NCBI GenBank assembly: GCA_015232315.1
Contig: JADFZZ010000002.1
Location: forward strand, 62,001-126,000
Reading direction: 5' to 3'
DNA from: SAR324 cluster bacterium
Lineage (GTDB): Bacteria > SAR324 > NAC60-12
Length of the DNA: 64,000 nt
In this document: positions 3,155 to 35,441 of the stretch, piece by piece
How positions within the stretch are numbered: position 1 is the stretch's first letter
Layout: each line of letters starts with the position of its first letter
Program-made: the position numbers and the translations under genes
The notes under the pieces: model-generated
What the model was told of the DNA's origin: nothing
The model's database searches: none
The model's input: only the letters and a program-made list of their open reading frames with translations

Positions 3155-3322
3155 GAGATTATATATGGCTATTAGTAATACAGGCGGGATGTTGCCTCAA
3201 ATCAACATCTGGGATTTTTAAATTTATTTTTTTTCAAATTGTAGATAACGTGCCGAAAATTATCAGCCTTTATTATACAAATCAATTTGTTTTACCAACA
3301 CCTGATTCACGATAAGGAAAAA

Positions 3323-4135
3323 ATGACGCAGACAAACAGATCTCCCCTGAATGATTCAATGAAACAACAGTTTGGAAGCTTGATTCTTCTGGACCGGATA
3401 ATCAATGAAAAGGAAACGTTTCATCTTTCCCTGATGGAAAAAGATGACAAGATCCTTGAACCCTTTCTACAAACGATGGAAAAGGAAGGTTTGATCGAAA
3501 TAGGCGCCAATGGAAATTATGTGGTAACCGAAAAAGGCAAAGAGACTTATCAGAGACTCATTCAACAACAACTGTCATACACTACCCATTTTGATATTTA
3601 TTCTCATGTGGATCTGGGTGAAGGTTGTTTTGCGGATAAAGAAACCGATTTTCTTGATGACAATCGCTGGACGGATCTGCGTGTCGCAGTTGCGGAATTC
3701 AAAGGAATTGATCCTTATCGGATGGTATTTCTGGCCATGCTGAGCGATGAATCGTTTTTTGAAAATCCGGAATGGAAATTTGATCTGGCAATGGGGACTC
3801 TTTTTGAGGAAATGGAATCGATTGTGCATAATCAGGTCAGTCTTGAAGAACTGGGCTATGAAGATGATGATGGTTCTGTTTCAGGAAACGAGGTTCTGAC
3901 AGATATCATTGAACAGGGTGCGGCCCTCAATCAGCAACGTCAGGAAGAACAACGACAACAGGAACAGGAGGCCGAAAGACTCAATCAGACGTCTCCCGAT
4001 GACGAAATTATAACAACCACAACTTATTATCAGGGGGGATACGGTTATCCCATGTACGATCCCTGGGCCACCATGGGGGCCTATGCGGCCAGTGCCCTGT
4101 TTGTTGAAGCTCTCTGGTATGATCCATACTGGTGA
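3323..4135 (+). CDS. Uncharacterised protein with Tyr/Gly/Trp-rich C-terminus
   Basis: I do not recognise a family. The best start is the ATG at 3323 (270 residues) with AAGGAAA just upstream; an upstream in-frame TTG has no ribosome site. Residues about 1-75 look like a winged-helix segment (FLQTMEKEGLIEIGANGNYVVTEKG in outline). The middle is acidic, followed by a Gln/Glu-rich linker, and the last 35 residues are rich in Tyr, Gly and Trp (YYQGGYGYPMYDPW). It ends 27 bases before the PqqD-like gene on the same strand, so it may belong to that operon. Whether it is a substrate, a regulator or unrelated cannot be told from sequence. Confidence 0.6.
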   Translation: MTQTNRSPLNDSMKQQFGSLILLDRIINEKETFHLSLMEKDDKILEPFLQTMEKEGLIEIGANGNYVVTEKGKETYQRLIQQQLSYTTHFDIYSHVDLGEGCFADKETDFLDDNRWTDLRVAVAEFKGIDPYRMVFLAMLSDESFFENPEWKFDLAMGTLFEEMESIVHNQVSLEELGYEDDDGSVSGNEVLTDIIEQGAALNQQRQEEQRQQEQEAERLNQTSPDDEIITTTTYYQGGYGYPMYDPWATMGAYAASALFVEALWYDPYW

Positions 4136-4162: not shown

Positions 4163-4411
4163 ATGATCCCAATTATGCCCAAACTCAACCAACTTGCCAT
4201 CAACGATGAAGGTTTTGTCTTTGATCCGATCACCGGCGAAAGCTATACCGTAAATTCATCAGGCCTCGTGATTTTGAATGGTCTCAAAGCCAGTTATCCA
4301 CAGGAACAAATCATTGATCTGCTAATCAATGATTTTGAAGTGACCCATGAACACGCAGAAAGAGATATTCTTGATTTTATGGATCACTTGAAATCTTTTA
4401 AATTGGTTTGA
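4163..4411 (+). CDS. PqqD-like peptide-binding (RRE-type) protein
   Basis: 82 residues; a start at 4175 (MPKLNQL) is equally possible. The core NDEGFVFDPITGESYTVN followed by a three-helix part (LKASYPQEQIIDLLINDF, LDFMDHLKSF) is the PqqD fold: three strands, then three helices. PqqD-like domains bind leader segments of ribosomal peptides and present them to modifying enzymes. No radical SAM enzyme is next to it here. The next gene is an ATP-grasp ligase starting two bases after this stop, and a PLP decarboxylase follows. Family assignment is fairly sure; the bound peptide is unknown, though the N-terminus of the decarboxylase two genes on is a candidate. Confidence 0.75.
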   Translation: MIPIMPKLNQLAINDEGFVFDPITGESYTVNSSGLVILNGLKASYPQEQIIDLLINDFEVTHEHAERDILDFMDHLKSFKLV

Positions 4412-4413
4412 CC

Positions 4414-5460
4414 ATGACAACAAAAAAAAAGTTGGTAGTGGGCATTTCCGGAATGAATGCTGTGGACAATCCTGGTCCAGGCGTTGGCGTGGCCCGCAGT
4501 CTCAAAGAAGATCCTGCTCTTGATGTCCGTGTCGTGGGGCTATGCTACGATGCCATGGAACCCGGAATTTATATGGACTGGTTGGTTGATCGCTCCTTCA
4601 TGGTTCCCTATCCTTCCAATAATCCGGAGGCCCTGTTTGACCGTTTGGCCTATATCAAACATGCTTATGGACTGGATTTTTTACTGCCAACCCTGGATGT
4701 GGAACTTCCGGTTTACATCAAATATCAGGAACAGCTTGAAAAAATGGGCATTCACGTCTTTTTACCGTCTATGGATCAATTCAAGTTACGTGGCAAAGAT
4801 CTGCTCCCTGAACTGGCCAAAAACATCGGCATCCATTGTCCCCGTACCGCAAGTGTCAATTCACTGGACGCCCTTGTTGAAGCTCTCGACACCATCCAGT
4901 TGCCTGTGATGATCAAGGGGGTCTATTACAAAGCCTATTATGCCTATACCACACAGGAAGCCATCGGTCACTATCATCATGTTGTCGCTGAATGGGGATA
5001 TCCCGTCATCGTACAGGAGATCATTCAGGGGGATGAACTGAATCTGGTTGGCGTCGGCGATGGCGAAGGAAACTCGCTGGGATGCGTTCAGATTAAAAAA
5101 ATGTGGATCACCGCCCTGGGAAAAATCTGGACCGGTGTTTCGATCAAAAATCAGGCGATGCAAGATGCTGCTGAAAATTTTTTAAAGCATTACAAATGGA
5201 AATCAGCCTTTGAACTCGAATGCATCGTTCGTGACAATGAATTATATTTGATTGAGATCAACCCCAGATTTCCCGCATGGTCTTACTTTGCCACAGGACT
5301 TGGCGTCAATTTACCCTCCAATCTTATCCATTCGGCCATGAACTGGCCTGTTCCACAAAACATGGCTTATGACGCGGGTAAATTATTTATCAGGTACACC
5401 TACGAACTTATTACAGACATGCTTCCCTTTCAAAAAATCACCACCACGGGTGAAGTCTGA
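4414..5460 (+). CDS. ATP-grasp ligase of unknown substrate
   Basis: The ATG at 4414 directly follows the PqqD stop, so translation is probably coupled; this gives 348 residues. An N-terminal Rossmann-like part (VVGISGMNAVDNPGPGVGVA) is followed by an ATP-grasp domain from about residue 110. Motifs visible are LRGKDLLPELAKNIGIHCPRT, the phosphate-binding VMIKGVYYKAYYAY region, the adenine region IVQEIIQGDELN, and the metal-binding LYLIEINPRFPAW. It resembles carbamoyl-phosphate-synthase-type ATP-grasp enzymes, which join a carboxylate to an amine or other nucleophile through an acyl phosphate. Since it sits between an RRE protein and an amino-acid-type decarboxylase, I infer a small amide-bond-forming pathway. 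The substrate cannot be read from the sequence. Confidence 0.8.
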   Translation: MTTKKKLVVGISGMNAVDNPGPGVGVARSLKEDPALDVRVVGLCYDAMEPGIYMDWLVDRSFMVPYPSNNPEALFDRLAYIKHAYGLDFLLPTLDVELPVYIKYQEQLEKMGIHVFLPSMDQFKLRGKDLLPELAKNIGIHCPRTASVNSLDALVEALDTIQLPVMIKGVYYKAYYAYTTQEAIGHYHHVVAEWGYPVIVQEIIQGDELNLVGVGDGEGNSLGCVQIKKMWITALGKIWTGVSIKNQAMQDAAENFLKHYKWKSAFELECIVRDNELYLIEINPRFPAWSYFATGLGVNLPSNLIHSAMNWPVPQNMAYDAGKLFIRYTYELITDMLPFQKITTTGEV

Positions 5461-5486
5461 ACAGAAACGCTCAACAGAGATAACTT

Positions 5487-6839
5487 GTGAAAAAAACTTA
5501 CGAAAAACCGTCTATTGTCAAACTCCAGAGCGGGTTGATGAACAAATTTGGCAGCAGTCCCGCCTATGCCAGAAAAATCAGAACCCACATTGACAATGTC
5601 TCCATAGAAGCATTGATTGCGACTCATGGTAGCCCGCTCTTTGTGTTCTCTGAAAAAAAACTCCGGGAACAATATAAATCCATCTATCAGGCTTTTTCCA
5701 CACGCTATCCCAAGGTGACTCTGGGCTGGTCTTATAAAACCAATTATCTTCAGGCCATTTGTGCTGCCTTGCACCAGGAAGGTGCCATTGCGGAGGTGGT
5801 GTCAGCGTTTGAATATGAAAAAGCCAGAAAGCTTGGCGTCAAGGGAGATAAAATCATCTTCAATGGTCCGCATAAATCTTTCAAGGCTCTGCAAAAAGCA
5901 GTGGATGAACGCGCCATGATCCATATTGATCATCTGGATGAAATCTATGACCTGGAAAAAATTGCCCAGAGCACAGGACGTACCGTTCCAGTGGCGATCC
6001 GGTTGAATATGAACACCGGAATTTATCCGCAATGGTCCCGCTTTGGTTTCAATGTTGAGTCAGGACAAGCACTGGATGCCGTAAAAAGAATTGTTTCCGG
6101 AAAAAAACTCATCATCAATGGACTGCATTGTCATATCGGAACATTCATCATGGACCCCGAAGCCTATGCCAGGCAGATTCAAAAAATGGTAGAATTTGGC
6201 TATAAGCTTCAGGATGAATTTGGAATCCGGATCGAATATTTTGATATTGGCGGGGGGTTTCCTTCCAAAAACAGACTGAAAGGCACCTATCTTCCGCCAG
6301 AAGTATCGCTCTCCGCGGTTGATGTGTATGCGGAAAAAATCACCACAGCTCTGTATCATGCGCTGAAACCGGGAGACATGCCCCATTTATACCTTGAAAC
6401 AGGACGGGCCATTGTGGATGAGGCCGGTTATCTGATCACCACCATCACTGCCGGAAAGCGTTTGCCCGATGGTAGAAAAGCCTATATCGCGGATGCGGGA
6501 GTGAATCTGCTGTTCACGGCGTTCTGGTATAAATTCAATATTGAAATTGACCGGGAAGTTCAGGGAATGAACGAAGCCGCTGTCATTTATGGCCCGCTCT
6601 GCATGAACATTGACGCCATTGATGAAGGAACGATGATTCCACCGCTTAACCGTGGAACCAGACTGATTATTTCACCGGTTGGCGCCTACAACCAGACACA
6701 ATCCATGCAATTTATTGAATACCGTCCAGCGTCAGTCATGATCAGCGAATCCGGAGAAATGGAACTGATCCGTGAAGCAGAAGATCTGAGCGACATTGAA
6801 CGCAGAGAAAAATTACCGGATCGTCTCAAAATTGTATAA
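5487..6839 (+). CDS. Fold-type III PLP decarboxylase (LysA/SpeC2-like) with leader-like N-terminus
   Basis: GTG start at 5487; 450 residues. An alanine-racemase-fold decarboxylase: PLP lysine in GWSYKTNY (Lys84), GLHCHIGTF, FDIGGGFP, LETGRAIV and the C-terminal catalytic Cys in YGPLCMNIDA. This fits the diaminopimelate/ornithine/carboxynorspermidine decarboxylase superfamily. Before the catalytic domain there are about 40 extra residues. They begin MKKTYEKPSIVKL, which matches the YxxPx(L/I)xxL pattern of lasso-peptide leaders bound by RRE domains. An RRE-type PqqD protein is encoded two genes upstream. I infer that it recruits this enzyme, or that the N-terminus derives from a precursor peptide. 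The enzyme's substrate is unknown. Confidence 0.82.
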   Translation: MKKTYEKPSIVKLQSGLMNKFGSSPAYARKIRTHIDNVSIEALIATHGSPLFVFSEKKLREQYKSIYQAFSTRYPKVTLGWSYKTNYLQAICAALHQEGAIAEVVSAFEYEKARKLGVKGDKIIFNGPHKSFKALQKAVDERAMIHIDHLDEIYDLEKIAQSTGRTVPVAIRLNMNTGIYPQWSRFGFNVESGQALDAVKRIVSGKKLIINGLHCHIGTFIMDPEAYARQIQKMVEFGYKLQDEFGIRIEYFDIGGGFPSKNRLKGTYLPPEVSLSAVDVYAEKITTALYHALKPGDMPHLYLETGRAIVDEAGYLITTITAGKRLPDGRKAYIADAGVNLLFTAFWYKFNIEIDREVQGMNEAAVIYGPLCMNIDAIDEGTMIPPLNRGTRLIISPVGAYNQTQSMQFIEYRPASVMISESGEMELIREAEDLSDIERREKLPDRLKIV

Positions 6840-6878
6840 TTCACAACGAGCTGGAACACTGTTTCAAAGGGTTCATGA

Positions 6879-8990
6879 ATGCCTTTTCAAAAAGTAATTT
6901 ATCCTTTCATTCAAAAAACCCATATCAGGACTATTTTAAACAGTTATTCTGAAATTCTGTTTCTGAATAATCCCCGCGTCGGATTGTTGCTGTTTGCCGC
7001 GACAATCATTAGCCCCAACACGGCTGTTTCCGGATTGATTGCCGTATTATCCGCCTACTTGTTTGCCCGATTTATCGGCATTCACAATGTGTTTTTGAGT
7101 TCCGGTTTTTATACCTACAATGCCCTGCTGGTCGGACTTTCAATCGGTGCCCTGTTCAGGCTGGGACCACTCACTGTTTTTTTGTTGCTAAGTCTTGGTA
7201 TTTTAACCTTCATTGTCACCAATGTGCTTTCCAACATTTTTTCGTATTACTTCAAACTTCCCATTTTGAGCCTGCCGTTTGTGATTGTGAGTTCCATCGC
7301 CTATCTTGCGGTCAGGCAGTATGCGGAACTGTTTGTAATCAGTTTGTACCCTCATGATTTCTCGTCATTCTCCATTCCTGTACCGTACTGGATCGAAGGG
7401 TATCTTCAGTCAATGGCAACCATTCTGTTTATGTCCTCCTCTCTGGCCGGACTCCTGTTCGCCGGATTGATTTTATTCACTTCGAGGATTCTGTTTTTTC
7501 TTTCGCTACTGGGATATTACGTTGGCACCGTCATCAAAGGACTCATGACAGGTTCCATGATTCTGGCATTTGCCAACCACAATCATTTTAACTTTATTTT
7601 AATCGCAATGGCACTGGGAGGCGTTTTTCTGATTCCATCCATGAAAAGTTATGTGCTGTGTATCATTGCTGTTGGAATTTCTACCATTTTTCTGGATGCG
7701 ATGCAGATTTTCTGGGCCAATTTCGGAATTCCCGCATTCACCCTGCCATTCAATATCATCTCTCTTGGATTGATCTATGTTCTGGGCGTTCTCAACTTCC
7801 CGCTCATCAGTAGACAAATCAAGGCCACGCCTGAAGAAACCCTGGACCATTATCTTTCGCGCCAGTTAAGATTTCAAGGATACGGTTACACCTTGTCTCT
7901 GCCTTTTTCCGGAGAATGGACCGTCTGGCAGACGTTCAACACCAACTGGACTCATCAGGGGGCATGGCAGTATGCTTATGATTTTGTGATCACAGATGAC
8001 AAAAATAATACACACAGCAAGGAAGGACAGGCTCTGGAAGACTATTTCGCCTACAAAAAACCTGTATTGTCTCCAGTCCGTGGCACCGTCACCCGGGTGG
8101 TAAACCATCTGCAGGACAACGCACCCGGGCAGACGGACTCCACCAACAACTGGGGCAATCTGGTTGTGATTCAGGACTACCGTGGATTTTTTGTAGAAAT
8201 TTCACATTTTGCGTTCAACTCCATTCAGGTCAAACCGGGTTCATGGGTTGAATGTGGATCGTATATCGGACTCTGCGGCAATTCAGGATATTCACCTCAA
8301 CCGCATATCCATGTTCAGGTTCAGGCGACTGAAGAAGTAGGCAGCACCACCCTTCCCTTCAGTTTTGTGAACTATATTCAGGACCATCAATATCATGCCA
8401 ATCATCTCCCCTCAGAAAAAGCCCGCATAGCACCGCTACACAAAGATATGTCGCTTGAGACAAAAACCAGTTTTATCCTGGATCAGGAATATCAATATGA
8501 AGTATGGAAAGCCGACAAAAAAATTGATCACTTTTCATTGATTGTAAAAATGGCTCTGGATGGATCTTTTTATTTCCAGTCTGATAAAGCAAAGTTGTAT
8601 TTCGGACAATATGAAGGCACATTCTACCTGTATCACATTGACGGCGATGATCCATATTTGAAGCTTCTCTTCATGGCTATACCCAGAATGCCGCTGAATT
8701 TTCAGGAAAAACTGGCATGGGAGGATTATATGAATGTCCGCACCATGTTCGGGAAAACAGCAACAGCCATGATTCTGCTGTTGAGTTCGTTTTCACACCG
8801 CTTGAGCCAGATTCATGCAACCTACCGATTTCTGGATAAAATAACCATTGAAGGCCTGGTGAAATCGACAATCTGGCGCAAACAATACCGAACACGTCTT
8901 GAATTGGATGAGGTCCGGGGATTCCATTATATTTGCGTCAATGACATTGAATTAAAAAAAATCAATCCTTCACTTGCAAAACAAAGCTAA
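6879..8990 (+). CDS. Urea-transporter-like membrane protein fused to M23 peptidase
   Basis: 703 residues, ATG at 6879 with AAAGGG upstream. Residues about 1-315 are strongly hydrophobic, with ten or so membrane segments, and resemble the bacterial urea transporter (UT) family (NNPRVGLLLFAATIISPNTA; FYTYNALLVGLSIG). Residues about 335-500 are an M23/LytM metallopeptidase domain with zinc ligands recognisable in THQGAWQYAYDF (His, Asp) and PHIHVQV, plus an SHF motif. A 200-residue C-terminal domain is unassigned. M23 enzymes cleave peptide cross-links or bonds in small peptides. UT-M23 fusion is a rare architecture. In this operon it could move a small amide across the inner membrane and process it outside, which is inference. 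Confidence 0.82.
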   Translation: MPFQKVIYPFIQKTHIRTILNSYSEILFLNNPRVGLLLFAATIISPNTAVSGLIAVLSAYLFARFIGIHNVFLSSGFYTYNALLVGLSIGALFRLGPLTVFLLLSLGILTFIVTNVLSNIFSYYFKLPILSLPFVIVSSIAYLAVRQYAELFVISLYPHDFSSFSIPVPYWIEGYLQSMATILFMSSSLAGLLFAGLILFTSRILFFLSLLGYYVGTVIKGLMTGSMILAFANHNHFNFILIAMALGGVFLIPSMKSYVLCIIAVGISTIFLDAMQIFWANFGIPAFTLPFNIISLGLIYVLGVLNFPLISRQIKATPEETLDHYLSRQLRFQGYGYTLSLPFSGEWTVWQTFNTNWTHQGAWQYAYDFVITDDKNNTHSKEGQALEDYFAYKKPVLSPVRGTVTRVVNHLQDNAPGQTDSTNNWGNLVVIQDYRGFFVEISHFAFNSIQVKPGSWVECGSYIGLCGNSGYSPQPHIHVQVQATEEVGSTTLPFSFVNYIQDHQYHANHLPSEKARIAPLHKDMSLETKTSFILDQEYQYEVWKADKKIDHFSLIVKMALDGSFYFQSDKAKLYFGQYEGTFYLYHIDGDDPYLKLLFMAIPRMPLNFQEKLAWEDYMNVRTMFGKTATAMILLLSSFSHRLSQIHATYRFLDKITIEGLVKSTIWRKQYRTRLELDEVRGFHYICVNDIELKKINPSLAKQS

Positions 8991-9069
8991 CTCGCACATA
9001 TATTGCTAAAGAACCCAAGGCTGGAGTGTTACAAAACTAATTTTAACTTTTTTTGATGAGAGATACCTC

Positions 9070-9690
9070 ATGAAACGATGTATATTTTCACTGTTGATCT
9101 GGATGATTGCATTGACTTCACTGGCGCAAGCTGAAAGCTGGATTCAGGAAGCCTATTATCGCTCCTACAGTTATGAAAAAATTCAGGATTATGACAATGC
9201 CCTTAAAACATTGATGCCGGTGTATCAGAAGTATCCTGAGGGATACAACGTGAATTTGAGATTTGGATGGATTTATTACTTGAAGGGCGCTTATGCCAAC
9301 GCTCTCGAGCATTATCAGAAGTCGATAGCCGCCGCGCCTTATTCTGTGACCGCGAAACTCGGACACACACTGCCGTTGATGGCACAACAGAAATGGGAGC
9401 AGGTCACCCAGGAATTGTATGAGGTAATCAATACCGACTACTATAATTATTATGGAAATCTGCGGTTGATCTATGGACTCAGAATGCAGAAAAAATTTGA
9501 TCTGGCAGAAAAAGTGATTTACAAAATGCTCCTCATATATCCGACTGATATCTCTCTGCTCACAGAACTCCTGCTGATCAGACTCACGAATGAGCAACAG
9601 AGTGAAGCAGAAAAAATCGCCACTGATCTTTTGATTCTTGACCCCGAAAATATCATCGCCAAGGGCTTTTTCCAGACTAACCCCAACTAA
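9070..9690 (+). CDS. Secreted tetratricopeptide (TPR) protein
   Basis: 206 residues. A signal peptide is visible (MKRCIFSLLIWMIALTSLAQA). It is followed by TPR-like helix pairs: YEKIQDYDNALKTLMPVYQKYPEGY, LRFGWIYYLKGAYANALEHYQKSI and a degenerate third near KKFDLAEKVIYKMLLIYPTD. TPR proteins are scaffolds. It lies 80 bases after the UT-M23 gene on the same strand and may be the last gene of that operon. The A/T-rich gap 8991-9069 contains no clear terminator. No enzymatic motif is visible. Confidence 0.75.
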   Translation: MKRCIFSLLIWMIALTSLAQAESWIQEAYYRSYSYEKIQDYDNALKTLMPVYQKYPEGYNVNLRFGWIYYLKGAYANALEHYQKSIAAAPYSVTAKLGHTLPLMAQQKWEQVTQELYEVINTDYYNYYGNLRLIYGLRMQKKFDLAEKVIYKMLLIYPTDISLLTELLLIRLTNEQQSEAEKIATDLLILDPENIIAKGFFQTNPN

Positions 9691-9750
9691 TGATCCGCAG
9701 TCCGGAAGAACCCGTTCCGACCCTTCAAAATCCAAATCTCTTTGAGATTC

Positions 9751-10431
9751 ATGATGCTCCATCCAATGTTTGAACTCAAAACCTGCCCAGTATCCGGGCA
9801 GTCTTTCATGGAAGAAATTATCAATGCTATCACCCATGGTTTAGGCCTGTTTTTGAGTATTGCCGGAATGGTGGTGCTGGTGACACTGGCCAGTCTGTAT
9901 GGCGATGTGCGTCATATTGTAAGTTGCAGTATCTATGGCACTACCCTGATTTTATTATACATGGCCTCCACACTCTATCATTCAGCACGTCCCGCATCCC
10001 GAAAAAAAACTATATTCAAAATTTTGGACCATTCCTGTATTTTCTTGCTGATTGCCGGCACCTACACACCATTCACCATGGTTTCACTGCCAGTAGGATG
10101 GGGGTGGAGCATTTTCGGTGTTGTCTGGGGACTCGCCGTGCTTGGCATTTCTTATAAAATGTTTTTTATCAATCATGCGGAATGGTTTTCAACAACAGTT
10201 TACCTGGCGATGGGTTGGCTGATTATGATCGCTTATCAACCCTTGAAAGAAAATGTTCCAACAGGAGCGCTTGTTCTGTTGATCGCAGGGGGACTAGCTT
10301 ACAGCGGCGGCGTTATTCCCTTTCTAATCAAAAAACTCCCCTTCAATCATGGAGTCTGGCATGTGTTTGTGCTGACCGGTAGCATCCTGCATTTTCTGGC
10401 TGTGACCTTGTATATAATTCCACTGTCCTGA
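9751..10431 (+). CDS. TrhA / hemolysin III (PAQR) family membrane protein
   Basis: The ATG at 9751 gives 226 residues. Seven hydrophobic segments are present with the family signature motifs: EEIINAITHGLG near the N-terminus, STLYHSA, LDHSCIFLLIAGTYTPF, and a C-terminal NHGVWHVFVLTGSILHF. The conserved His residues of HG, YH, DH and WH..H are all retained, as in PAQR-type proteins that bind a metal within the membrane. Bacterial members influence membrane lipid composition; haemolysis is not established for most. It starts 60 bases after the TPR gene. Confidence 0.9.
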   Translation: MMLHPMFELKTCPVSGQSFMEEIINAITHGLGLFLSIAGMVVLVTLASLYGDVRHIVSCSIYGTTLILLYMASTLYHSARPASRKKTIFKILDHSCIFLLIAGTYTPFTMVSLPVGWGWSIFGVVWGLAVLGISYKMFFINHAEWFSTTVYLAMGWLIMIAYQPLKENVPTGALVLLIAGGLAYSGGVIPFLIKKLPFNHGVWHVFVLTGSILHFLAVTLYIIPLS

Positions 10432-29458: not shown

Positions 29459-29786
29459 GTAGGGGCGACCCGCCGGTCGCCCTGTGCCAACAAAATGAAC
29501 GAACCTGAAATTTGTTTTGGGTGGAATATCTGGGCGATCCGCCGACCCCCACCCTGACATGTGGGCATTGCGGTAGGGGCGACCCGCCGGTCGCCCTTTG
29601 GGAAATGCATTAACAACCCTGATTTGTTTTTTGGGGAGGATGAATAACAGGGCGACCGGCCGGTCGCCCCTACCGCAACGTATTTAACAATCCTGAAATT
29701 TGTTTTGGGTGGAATAACAGGGCGACCGGCCGGTCGCCCCTACCATGACATTGGCAATATTTGGGCGACCGGCGGGTCGCCCCTAC
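29459..29786. repeat. Array of six REP-like palindromes with duplicated leader sequence
   Basis: Units at 29459-29483 and 29573-29597 are identical (GTAGGGGCGACCCGCCGG and on). 29649-29673 and 29719-29743 are identical to each other (GGCGACCGGCCGGTCGCC core). 29763-29786 is near-identical and 29532-29550 degenerate. Between them the stretch GAACCTGAAATTTGTTTTGG recurs. Its last copy, at about 29802, forms the ribosome-site region of the lipoprotein gene at 29824. The array therefore arose by repeated duplication of a leader plus REP unit. Confidence 0.85.
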
Positions 29787-34223: not shown

Positions 34224-35441
34224 ATGGAATTTTCAGCAGAAATGAAATATGTCCTGGATACAATCTGGTTGTTGATCAGCGGAAGTCTTGTCATGTGGAT
34301 GGCCGCAGGTTTTGCCATGCTTGAGGCCGGATTGGTAAGAACCAAAAACGTCACAGCGATTTTGACAAAAAATGTGACCTTGTACGCGCTTGCGTGTATT
34401 GCGTATTATATCATCGGCTACAACCTGATGTATGGTTCAGGCAATGCCGTTTTGGGGATGGGTTTGTTCATGTCAGACATCACCAATGATAAACATAGTG
34501 TGATTGCGGACTTTTTCTTTCAGGTCGTGTTTGTGGCAACCGCCGCATCGGTTGTTTCAGGAGCTGTTGCTGAACGGATCAAATTCTGGCCATTCATGAT
34601 TTTTACCCTGATTCTGACTTCAATCATTTATCCCATTCAGGGGCATTGGTCATGGGGTGGTAGCGCCTTGGGCGGATTGATGGATGGATTCAAGGATTTC
34701 GCAGGTTCAACCATCGTTCACTCTGTTGGTGGATGGGCGGCTCTGGCAGGTGTGTTACTGCTCGGACCTCGCAAAGGAAAATATGACGCACAGGGACGTG
34801 TCCATCCGATTCCAGGTTCCAATTTGGGAATGGCAACTCTCGGAGCCTTGATTCTGTGGCTTGGATGGTTTGGTTTCAATGGCGGATCACAATTGGCCAT
34901 GGGATCAAAAGCAGATGTGGATGCAATTGCCAATGTGATTGCCAATACAAATATCGCGGCTTGTGCAGGAGCCGTAGTGGCAATGATTCTGACCCAGATT
35001 CTGTATAAAAAAGTGGATCTTACCATGGTGTTGAACGGTGCCTTGGCTGGATTGGTTGCAATCACTGCCGGCCCCGACTATCCAAACATGGGAATTTCCA
35101 TTCTGATTGCTTCTATCGGTGCGGTTCTGGTGGTGTTTGCAGTTCCTTTCTTTGATAAAATGAAAATTGATGATCCAGTCGGAGCATTGTCTGTTCACCT
35201 CGTCAATGGAATCTGGGGAACTCTGGCGGTTGGAATCTTCAACCCTGACGCCTCTCTGTTCGCGCAAATCAAAGGGATTGTGATTGTCGGAATATTCACT
35301 TTTTCATGCAGCCTGGCAATCTGGTCATTGATCAAAATGACAGTCGGCATTCGGGTTCCTGAAGAAGAAGAATACGAAGGTTCAGATATCGCTGAATTCG
35401 GATTGGAAGCATATCCTGAATTTGTGGCTGGTAAAAACTGA
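34224..35441 (+). CDS. amtB: AmtB ammonium transporter
   Basis: 405 residues, GGAG before the ATG, eleven hydrophobic segments. Pore motifs are present: MWMAAGFAMLEAGLVRTKN, DFFFQVVFVATAASVVSGAVAER, the first pore histidine in IVHSVGGWAALAG and the second in SVHLVNGIWGTLAVG, and LWLGWFGFNGGSQLA. The cytoplasmic tail is short. Usually a PII gene (glnK) is next to amtB; none is present here. A sigma-54 promoter lies upstream and an intrinsic terminator downstream, so it is a single-gene unit. Confidence 0.95.
   Translation: MEFSAEMKYVLDTIWLLISGSLVMWMAAGFAMLEAGLVRTKNVTAILTKNVTLYALACIAYYIIGYNLMYGSGNAVLGMGLFMSDITNDKHSVIADFFFQVVFVATAASVVSGAVAERIKFWPFMIFTLILTSIIYPIQGHWSWGGSALGGLMDGFKDFAGSTIVHSVGGWAALAGVLLLGPRKGKYDAQGRVHPIPGSNLGMATLGALILWLGWFGFNGGSQLAMGSKADVDAIANVIANTNIAACAGAVVAMILTQILYKKVDLTMVLNGALAGLVAITAGPDYPNMGISILIASIGAVLVVFAVPFFDKMKIDDPVGALSVHLVNGIWGTLAVGIFNPDASLFAQIKGIVIVGIFTFSCSLAIWSLIKMTVGIRVPEEEEYEGSDIAEFGLEAYPEFVAGKN

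Follow-up and report, generated by a model that had tools for sequence, protein, structure and literature searches.

Organization and Distribution of the Gene Set

The gene set considered here occupies positions 4163–9690 on the plus strand of a 64-kb window, by which the whole stretch of analyzed DNA is meant. It consists of five open reading frames (ORFs) in the order RRE, ATP-grasp ligase, PLP decarboxylase, UT-M23 membrane protein, and TPR protein, separated by gaps of 2, 26, 39, and 79 bases. An earlier sequence-only reading of the window had described five tightly spaced plus-strand genes at these positions and named their families. Both parts of this description are confirmed, as the Pfam and NCBIfam models return PqqD/RRE, ATP-grasp, the fold-III PLP decarboxylase, UT together with M23, and TPR.

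The RRE–ATP-grasp–PLP core recurs at 44 loci when the GTDB genome contigs are searched with the ATP-grasp protein. These loci belong to 12 named phyla (Aquificota, Verrucomicrobiota, Pseudomonadota, Thermodesulfobacteriota, Bacteroidota, Planctomycetota, Campylobacterota, Gemmatimonadota, Wallbacteria, Fibrobacterota, Ignavibacteriota, and WOR-3/Caldifarciminota), with the labels taken from titles and most loci being metagenome bins, for which single labels may be wrong. In a tblastn comparison of all window proteins with the 44 loci, the order of the five genes is kept nearly throughout, provided that the contig is long enough. The Fibrobacterota loci L051 and L052 carry the UT-M23 and TPR genes upstream of the RRE, and no TPR protein is seen with the window proteins in L034 and L050. 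Within SAR324, the phylum of the window itself, the cassette is present in 3 of 52 genomes, i.e., the window and two relatives.

For the four main components, the pairwise distances between proteins are mutually correlated (r = 0.83–0.92). Among 136 Aquificota genomes, the PLP decarboxylase occurs in 42, the UT-M23 protein in 43, and both occur in 41 (Fisher p about 1e-31, a value that ignores relatedness). The Aquificota carriers include several genomes with contigs longer than 0.8 Mb (G168, G169, G179, and G218). In several Aquificota, the two genes are located on separate contigs or at a distance, 194 kb in one genome (G211), and thus their co-occurrence is independent of linkage. The recurrence of the set goes far beyond chance, and the co-function of the cassette genes is near certain. 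The sequence-only reading had made its proposal of one functional unit depend on co-occurrence in other genomes, and the proposal is strongly borne out by the 44 loci.

The RRE and the N-Terminal Tag of the Decarboxylase

The first gene (4163–4411, plus strand) encodes a discrete RRE of the PqqD family with a length of 82 amino acids (Pfam PqqD 39.8 bits, cut-off 23.4). Its profile matches in the PDB are TfuB1 and TbiB1, both of which are RREs of lasso peptides. According to a 2026 study, discrete RREs recognize the leader motif [Y/W]xxPx[L/V/I/F/A], and the leader is bound by N33 of LppB at its Pro and by D70 at its Tyr, with G42 and Q79 as the equivalents in PbaB1 (PMC13381572). The spacing between N31 and D68 of the cassette RRE, 37 residues, is identical to that between N33 and D70 of LppB. 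When the RRE profile is aligned with PDB 9x90_B, a lasso PqqD-family chaperone which we take to be PbaB1, N31 coincides with its Gly and D68 with its Gln, and the positions of these two residues fit G42 and Q79. The candidate reader residues are well conserved: D68 is kept in 43 of the 44 RREs, and position 31 is Asn in 33 and Ser in the remaining 11. The RRE claimed in the sequence-only reading is therefore real, given the PqqD score, the lasso RRE matches, and the presence of N31 and D68.

The probable counterpart of these residues is found at the N-terminus of the PLP decarboxylase, where the first 22 amino acids form an RRE-binding-type tag (VKKTYEKPSIVKLQSGLMNKFG; 5487–5552, plus strand). 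The tag has the consensus YxKPxIxKLxxGxMNKFG after a short start and fits the YxxPx[hydrophobic] motif of discrete RREs. In 40 of 40 PLP sequences, Y5, P8, N19, and G22 are invariant and position 10 is I, V, L, or M, while K20 is kept in 39. The pairwise identity reaches 0.90–1.0 across N19–G22, stands at 1.0 at residue 22, and drops sharply to 0.15 at residue 23; the tag is followed by a linker of variable length. The homology of the PLP protein to solved decarboxylases starts at residue 27–29 or later. The description of the decarboxylase as leader-bearing is thus upheld by a conserved tag at residues 1–22.

The tag is seen solely on the PLP gene in the 41 carrier genomes searched. In these and in the 52 SAR324 genomes, proteins other than PLP give just weak chance matches (E above 0.08), and the idea that the motif is widely shared with other proteins was rejected on this basis; no match was found in plasmids. 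Each locus carries one RRE in 42 of 44 cases, the remaining two loci being cut at the contig end, and the genome of the window holds no second PqqD-family protein beside the cassette RRE. Taken together, the tag motif, the reader residues, the restriction of the tag to PLP, the single RRE per locus, and the lack of another PqqD-family protein in the genome make the predicted binding of the tag by the RRE, and with it a docking function, well supported. The sole visible ligand of the RRE seems to be the decarboxylase itself, which the sequence-only reading had not foreseen. The conservation of NKFG exceeds what RRE binding alone should need, and this counts against a docking-only reading.

Search for a Precursor Peptide and RiPP Partner Genes

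A RiPP cluster is characterized by a leader-recognition protein and a precursor with a leader and a variable core. The former is present here, and the latter was not found by small-ORF clustering or by the tag search in the 41 genomes. Clustering of the small ORFs around the loci gave no shared small peptide apart from what local synteny of closely related genomes explains, and a single YxxP-like small ORF is attributable to chance. The sequence-only reading had noted neither a separate precursor peptide nor a radical SAM gene; the former observation agrees with the clustering and with the confinement of tag-like sequence to PLP, and no radical SAM gene is seen next to the RRE.

Two known pathways were considered and rejected. 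For a lasso peptide cluster, neither a B2 leader peptidase nor an asparagine-synthetase-like C protein recurs across the loci. For the PQQ pathway, no gene of the kind of PqqE (radical SAM) or PqqA recurs beside the RRE, and the RRE scores 18.9 against the PqqD equivalog, the cut-off of which is 46.

The ATP-Grasp Ligase and the PLP Decarboxylase

The second gene (4414–5460, plus strand) encodes an ATP-grasp ligase of 348 amino acids, similar to PRK12767 and 2pn1 (ATP-grasp_3 26.5, cut-off 23.2; NCBIfam). The AlphaFold2 model has a pLDDT of 88, and its best matches are 2pn1, biotin carboxylase, and carbamoyl-phosphate synthase. Residues K168, E267, E269, E281, N283, and R285 are invariant. The fold does not discriminate between substrates, as biotin carboxylase, carbamoyl-phosphate synthase, and GAR synthetase are matched with similar scores.

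The third gene (5487–6839, plus strand) encodes the 450-amino-acid PLP decarboxylase of fold III, i.e., of the alanine-racemase fold, which resembles FslC/FigC (Orn_Arg_deC_N 111, Orn_DAP_Arg_deC 41.6). The best PDB match is the N-citrylornithine decarboxylase 7kh2 with 197 bits, compared with 144 bits for the DAP decarboxylase and 80 bits for BtrK. K84 and C372 are present in 40 of 40 sequences, the residue after C372 is Met in 39 of them (motif GPLCMNID), and the Arg that holds the distal carboxylate of DAP is replaced by Thr, likewise in 39. An ordinary LysA was rejected on these grounds, namely the Met in place of an acid after the Cys, the Thr in place of Arg, and a LysA equivalog score of 217.2 below the cut-off of 297.9.

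FigC is grouped with SbnH, AcsE, MccE, and BtrK, decarboxylases whose substrates are amino acids in conjugated or carrier-bound form; where other decarboxylases have an acid next to the catalytic Cys that binds the free amine of the side chain, FigC has Met (PMC7857480). The cassette enzyme shares the C-M motif with this group and has FslC as its closest match, an assignment made by similarity and not by a superfamily tree. Given the FslC/FigC relation and the Met in place of the amine-binding acid, the substrate is probably an amino acid with an acylated side-chain amine, which is what the neighboring ATP-grasp ligase would make. Identity with FslC was rejected, since the equivalog score is 214.8 versus a cut-off of 500, and H357 of FigC, the predicted citrate contact, corresponds to Ile (C-M-N-I-D versus C-M-Q-H-D in FigC). 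As this His is not kept, the acyl group need not be citrate.

An example of a covalent link between the two activities is found on a plasmid of Streptomyces zaomyceticus (locus L126, 6998–9274), in which a protein annotated as hypothetical is a natural fusion of an ATP-grasp domain of the cassette type and a PLP-decarboxylase domain. The PLP domain contains the Cys-Met pair, and there is no tag and no RRE. This single distant case (28.7% and 22% identity) fits the idea that the RRE and the tag might replace the covalent link between the two enzymes. The fusion gene is adjacent to genes for a 195-amino-acid protein without a Pfam match and a fatty acid desaturase, and it possibly represents an undescribed natural-product locus.

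The UT-M23 Membrane Protein

The fourth gene encodes a membrane protein with three parts. The urea-channel-like UT domain (6879–7829, plus strand) belongs to the UT family by fold, signature, and a Pfam UT score of 200 bits, with matches to urea transporters in the PDB. It is followed by an M23/LytM metallopeptidase domain (7911–8348, plus strand; Peptidase_M23 38.3, cut-off 28.7) and by a conserved, beta-rich C-terminal region with no Pfam hit and no assigned family (8376–8987, plus strand), for which the Foldseek matches among those listed are essentially M23-type proteins. The whole protein is 33–55% identical to its relatives. The M23 catalytic set (WTH, D, H, HxH) is invariant in 32 of 32 sequences, and the model of this domain has a pLDDT of 92 and M23 structural matches. 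With regard to urea transport, the pore signature of the UT domain is partly altered, with Ser for Thr at position 131 in 33 of 35 sequences and Glu for the usual Gln at position 25 in 28 of 35.

The orientation of the protein is indicated by its charges. The mean number of Lys and Arg residues over 35 sequences is 4.1 in the UT N-terminus and 4.7 in the segment after the last transmembrane helix, compared with 0.8 (and 1.7 acidic residues) in the central loop. The positive-inside rule and the homology to UT proteins predict a cytoplasmic location for both ends, including the M23 domain, in agreement with the known UT topology. With the M23 domain on the cytoplasmic side, any cleavage would precede transport. 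UT channels are passive, and a peptide does not fit through a pore of the urea-channel type. The trimming of an exported product by M23, as proposed in the sequence-only reading, is therefore unlikely.

The closest plasmid relatives of the M23 domain are mostly from haloarchaea and Thermus, with 32–40% identity. As haloarchaea are without murein, this M23 subfamily may act on peptides other than murein. With regard to periplasmic peptidoglycan hydrolysis, the domain is predicted to be cytoplasmic, and its relatives also occur in haloarchaea.

The TPR Protein and the Outer-Membrane-Barrel-Like Protein

The last gene of the set (9070–9690, plus strand) encodes a secreted TPR protein of 206 amino acids with an N-terminal signal peptide (TPR_14 31.2, cut-off 23.5), the homologues of which in other loci are 35–53% identical. 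In most loci, a sixth gene is located between UT-M23 and TPR, and the corresponding site in the window, where the gene is absent by comparison with the other loci, is 8991–9069 (plus strand). Its product of ~290 amino acids resembles an outer-membrane barrel, with a signal peptide and the C-terminal Phe or Trp that is a signature of such barrels. No Pfam or NCBIfam family scores above its cut-off for the barrel proteins of other loci. The two SAR324 relatives carry a barrel-type protein, and the window and L041 are without it; a search of the window's genome with the YaiO model, the one model applied, gave no match. In some Verrucomicrobia loci (L016), the barrel is fused behind the TPR repeats.

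In Verrucomicrobia-type loci, large secreted and mutually related proteins lie directly downstream of the cassette (L016 7262–8884, L019 15777–18080, and L023 15397–16827), and the copy of L016 ends in a peptidase S74 (endosialidase chaperone) domain.

Proposed Mechanism and Alternative Explanations

The best reading, which we hold tentatively and at somewhat less than an even chance, is that the cassette genes form a conserved unit that makes and exports a small conjugate derived from an amino acid, and that the RRE docks the PLP enzyme by its tag. The sequence-only reading had inferred a small-molecule or peptide pathway with an exported conjugate; the conserved functional unit stands, and the post-export trimming by M23 does not. 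In the proposed sequence of events, the ATP-grasp ligase would form an amide bond between an amino acid side chain and a partner. The PLP enzyme would then strip the alpha-carboxylate of the conjugated amino acid to yield an amine, as suggested by the FslC/FigC relation and the active-site residues. The RRE would grip the YxxP tag and keep the decarboxylase complexed with the ATP-grasp ligase, and perhaps UT-M23, and the conjugate would be handed on. The tag and the reader residues are present, and by their pairing the recognition known from RiPP leaders would dock an enzyme and not a precursor peptide. Finally, the domain types and signal peptides suggest that the UT-type channel could take the product across the inner membrane and the barrel across the outer one, with TPR as the periplasmic partner. 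Speculatively, the M23 domain at the mouth of the channel would cleave most likely a peptide-linked intermediate, or else the tag itself after Gly22. Against this reading stand the altered UT pore signature, the barrel missing in the window, the role of M23, which is not explained, and the fact that the L126 fusion is single and distant.

Conservation ends abruptly at Gly22 and the layout of the tag is that of a leader, and for these reasons another explanation stays in play, in which the PLP enzyme is itself a leader-bearing substrate, as in the precursor-enzyme fusions of borosins. The RRE would present the tag to the ATP-grasp ligase and the cytoplasmic M23 domain, and M23 would cut after Gly22 (NKFG), freeing a modified peptide or maturing the enzyme at the transporter; we consider this rather unlikely. 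In layout and length, the tag corresponds to a lasso leader, with Tyr about 17 residues before the terminal Gly as in the leader of TfuA, and the peak of conservation at N19–G22 is followed at once by the variable linker. The invariant catalytic residues of an M23 domain predicted to be cytoplasmic, and the parallel of the gene roles with lasso B1/B2/C plus a transporter, point in the same direction. Nevertheless, residues 1–22 differ little from one organism to another, which is not expected of a natural-product core, a 450-amino-acid enzyme per product would be costly, and a peptide cannot pass a UT-sized pore. It is similarly doubtful that the modification of the presented tag, its cleavage by the channel-fused M23 after NKFG, or both, couple the synthesis and release of a small product to transport, in a RiPP-type recognition system with an enzyme as its leader-bearing client. 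The true RRE substrate could also be a small precursor or carrier peptide that escaped recognition, its gene lying elsewhere or being too short or too variable to see; the PLP tag would then only let the decarboxylase use the same RRE. Precursor peptides are the usual clients of RREs, and short variable ORFs are easily missed, but the clustering yielded one chance ORF, the tag-like sequence is confined to PLP in 41 genomes, and such a peptide seems on balance improbable.

The relation of the decarboxylase to FslC, and its resemblance by similarity to the acyl-amino-acid-conjugate clade (PMC7857480), could also indicate a metallophore- or polyamine-type pathway, with the ATP-grasp ligase in place of an NIS synthetase and a secreted carboxylate/amine chelator as the product. 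This possibility is held to be distinctly unlikely, as H357 of FigC is not kept and no candidate family for a siderophore receptor or an NIS synthetase recurs across the loci. The least probable explanation, to which hardly any weight is given, is that the UT domain imports urea or ammonia and that the cassette serves nitrogen scavenging. The membership in the UT family and the closeness of the ATP-grasp fold to biotin carboxylase and carbamoyl-phosphate synthase would agree with such a role, but the pore signature residues are changed, no urease or similar family recurs across the loci, and the RRE, the tag, and the M23 domain are left unexplained.

Comparison with Known Systems

The clusters of lasso and LPP RiPPs (B1, LppB) share with the cassette the discrete PqqD-family RRE, the YxxP leader motif, a peptidase, and a transporter, and those of lasso peptides also share an ATP-dependent amide-forming enzyme. 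In contrast, no precursor is seen in the cassette, and the leader is carried by a 450-amino-acid decarboxylase; in place of the asparagine-synthetase-like cyclase, B2, and the ABC exporter, it has ATP-grasp, M23, and UT, respectively. The rhizoferrin pathway of FigA/FigC (FslA/FslC) likewise employs a ligase that forms an amide and, as the next enzyme, a fold-III decarboxylase with the Cys-Met motif, which acts on the acylated amino acid. It differs in its NIS synthetase and MFS exporter, in the lack of RRE, tag, UT-M23, and barrel, and in the citrate-contact His, which the cassette does not keep. In butirosin biosynthesis, the ATP-grasp enzyme BtrJ is combined with BtrK, a fold-III decarboxylase of a tethered amino acid. 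This amino acid is bound as an acyl-carrier-protein thioester, unlike in the cassette, and BtrK, which acts on BtrI-S-glutamate (PMC7857480), is a more distant match to the cassette enzyme.

UT urea channels have the same fold, and N81 and the P-F motifs are kept in the cassette protein, which differs from them by the fused M23 domain, the extra C-terminal region, and the pore changes from T to S and from Q to E. Export porins of the PgaA/BcsC type resemble the cassette in the periplasmic TPR with an outer-membrane barrel, fused in the L016-type loci, whereas the cassette has no polysaccharide synthase and its barrel matches no family.

Full-text literature, with few subscription journals covered, held nothing relevant on the gene set, 'MNKFG', or the UT-M23 fusion, in line with the sequence-only reading, which knew of no described system with this set. 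The parts belong to known families, and the system as a whole is rated as new in kind, because no RiPP precursor is seen, the lasso and PQQ partner genes are missing, and the decarboxylase falls below both the LysA and the FslC cut-offs. The established role of RREs is to recognize the leaders of precursor peptides. In the cassette, which is kept together in at least 12 phyla and also in deep-branching bacteria from vents, a conserved RRE seems to recognize a tag carried by a metabolic enzyme. Confirmation of this would extend RiPP leader recognition to the docking or maturation of enzymes and would add a family of exported amino-acid conjugates, together with a channel-fused M23 peptidase oriented towards the cytoplasm, of which the literature searched gave no earlier example.

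Neighboring Features of the Window

The flanking genes at 3287–4135 and 9742–10431 are outside the conserved set in the tblastn comparison of the 44 loci. The former (plus strand), just upstream of the RRE, matches a winged-helix family only weakly (HTH_45, 21.5 bits, below the cut-off) and is probably a mere neighbor, since it is not conserved with the cassette. Farther downstream, the start of an ORF at 34224–35441 (plus strand) resembles by eye the N-terminus of an Amt-like ammonium transporter, and a 70-bp tandem repeat of 2.4 copies with a GC-rich palindrome (GGGCGACCGGCCGGTCGCCC) is located at 29577–29744.
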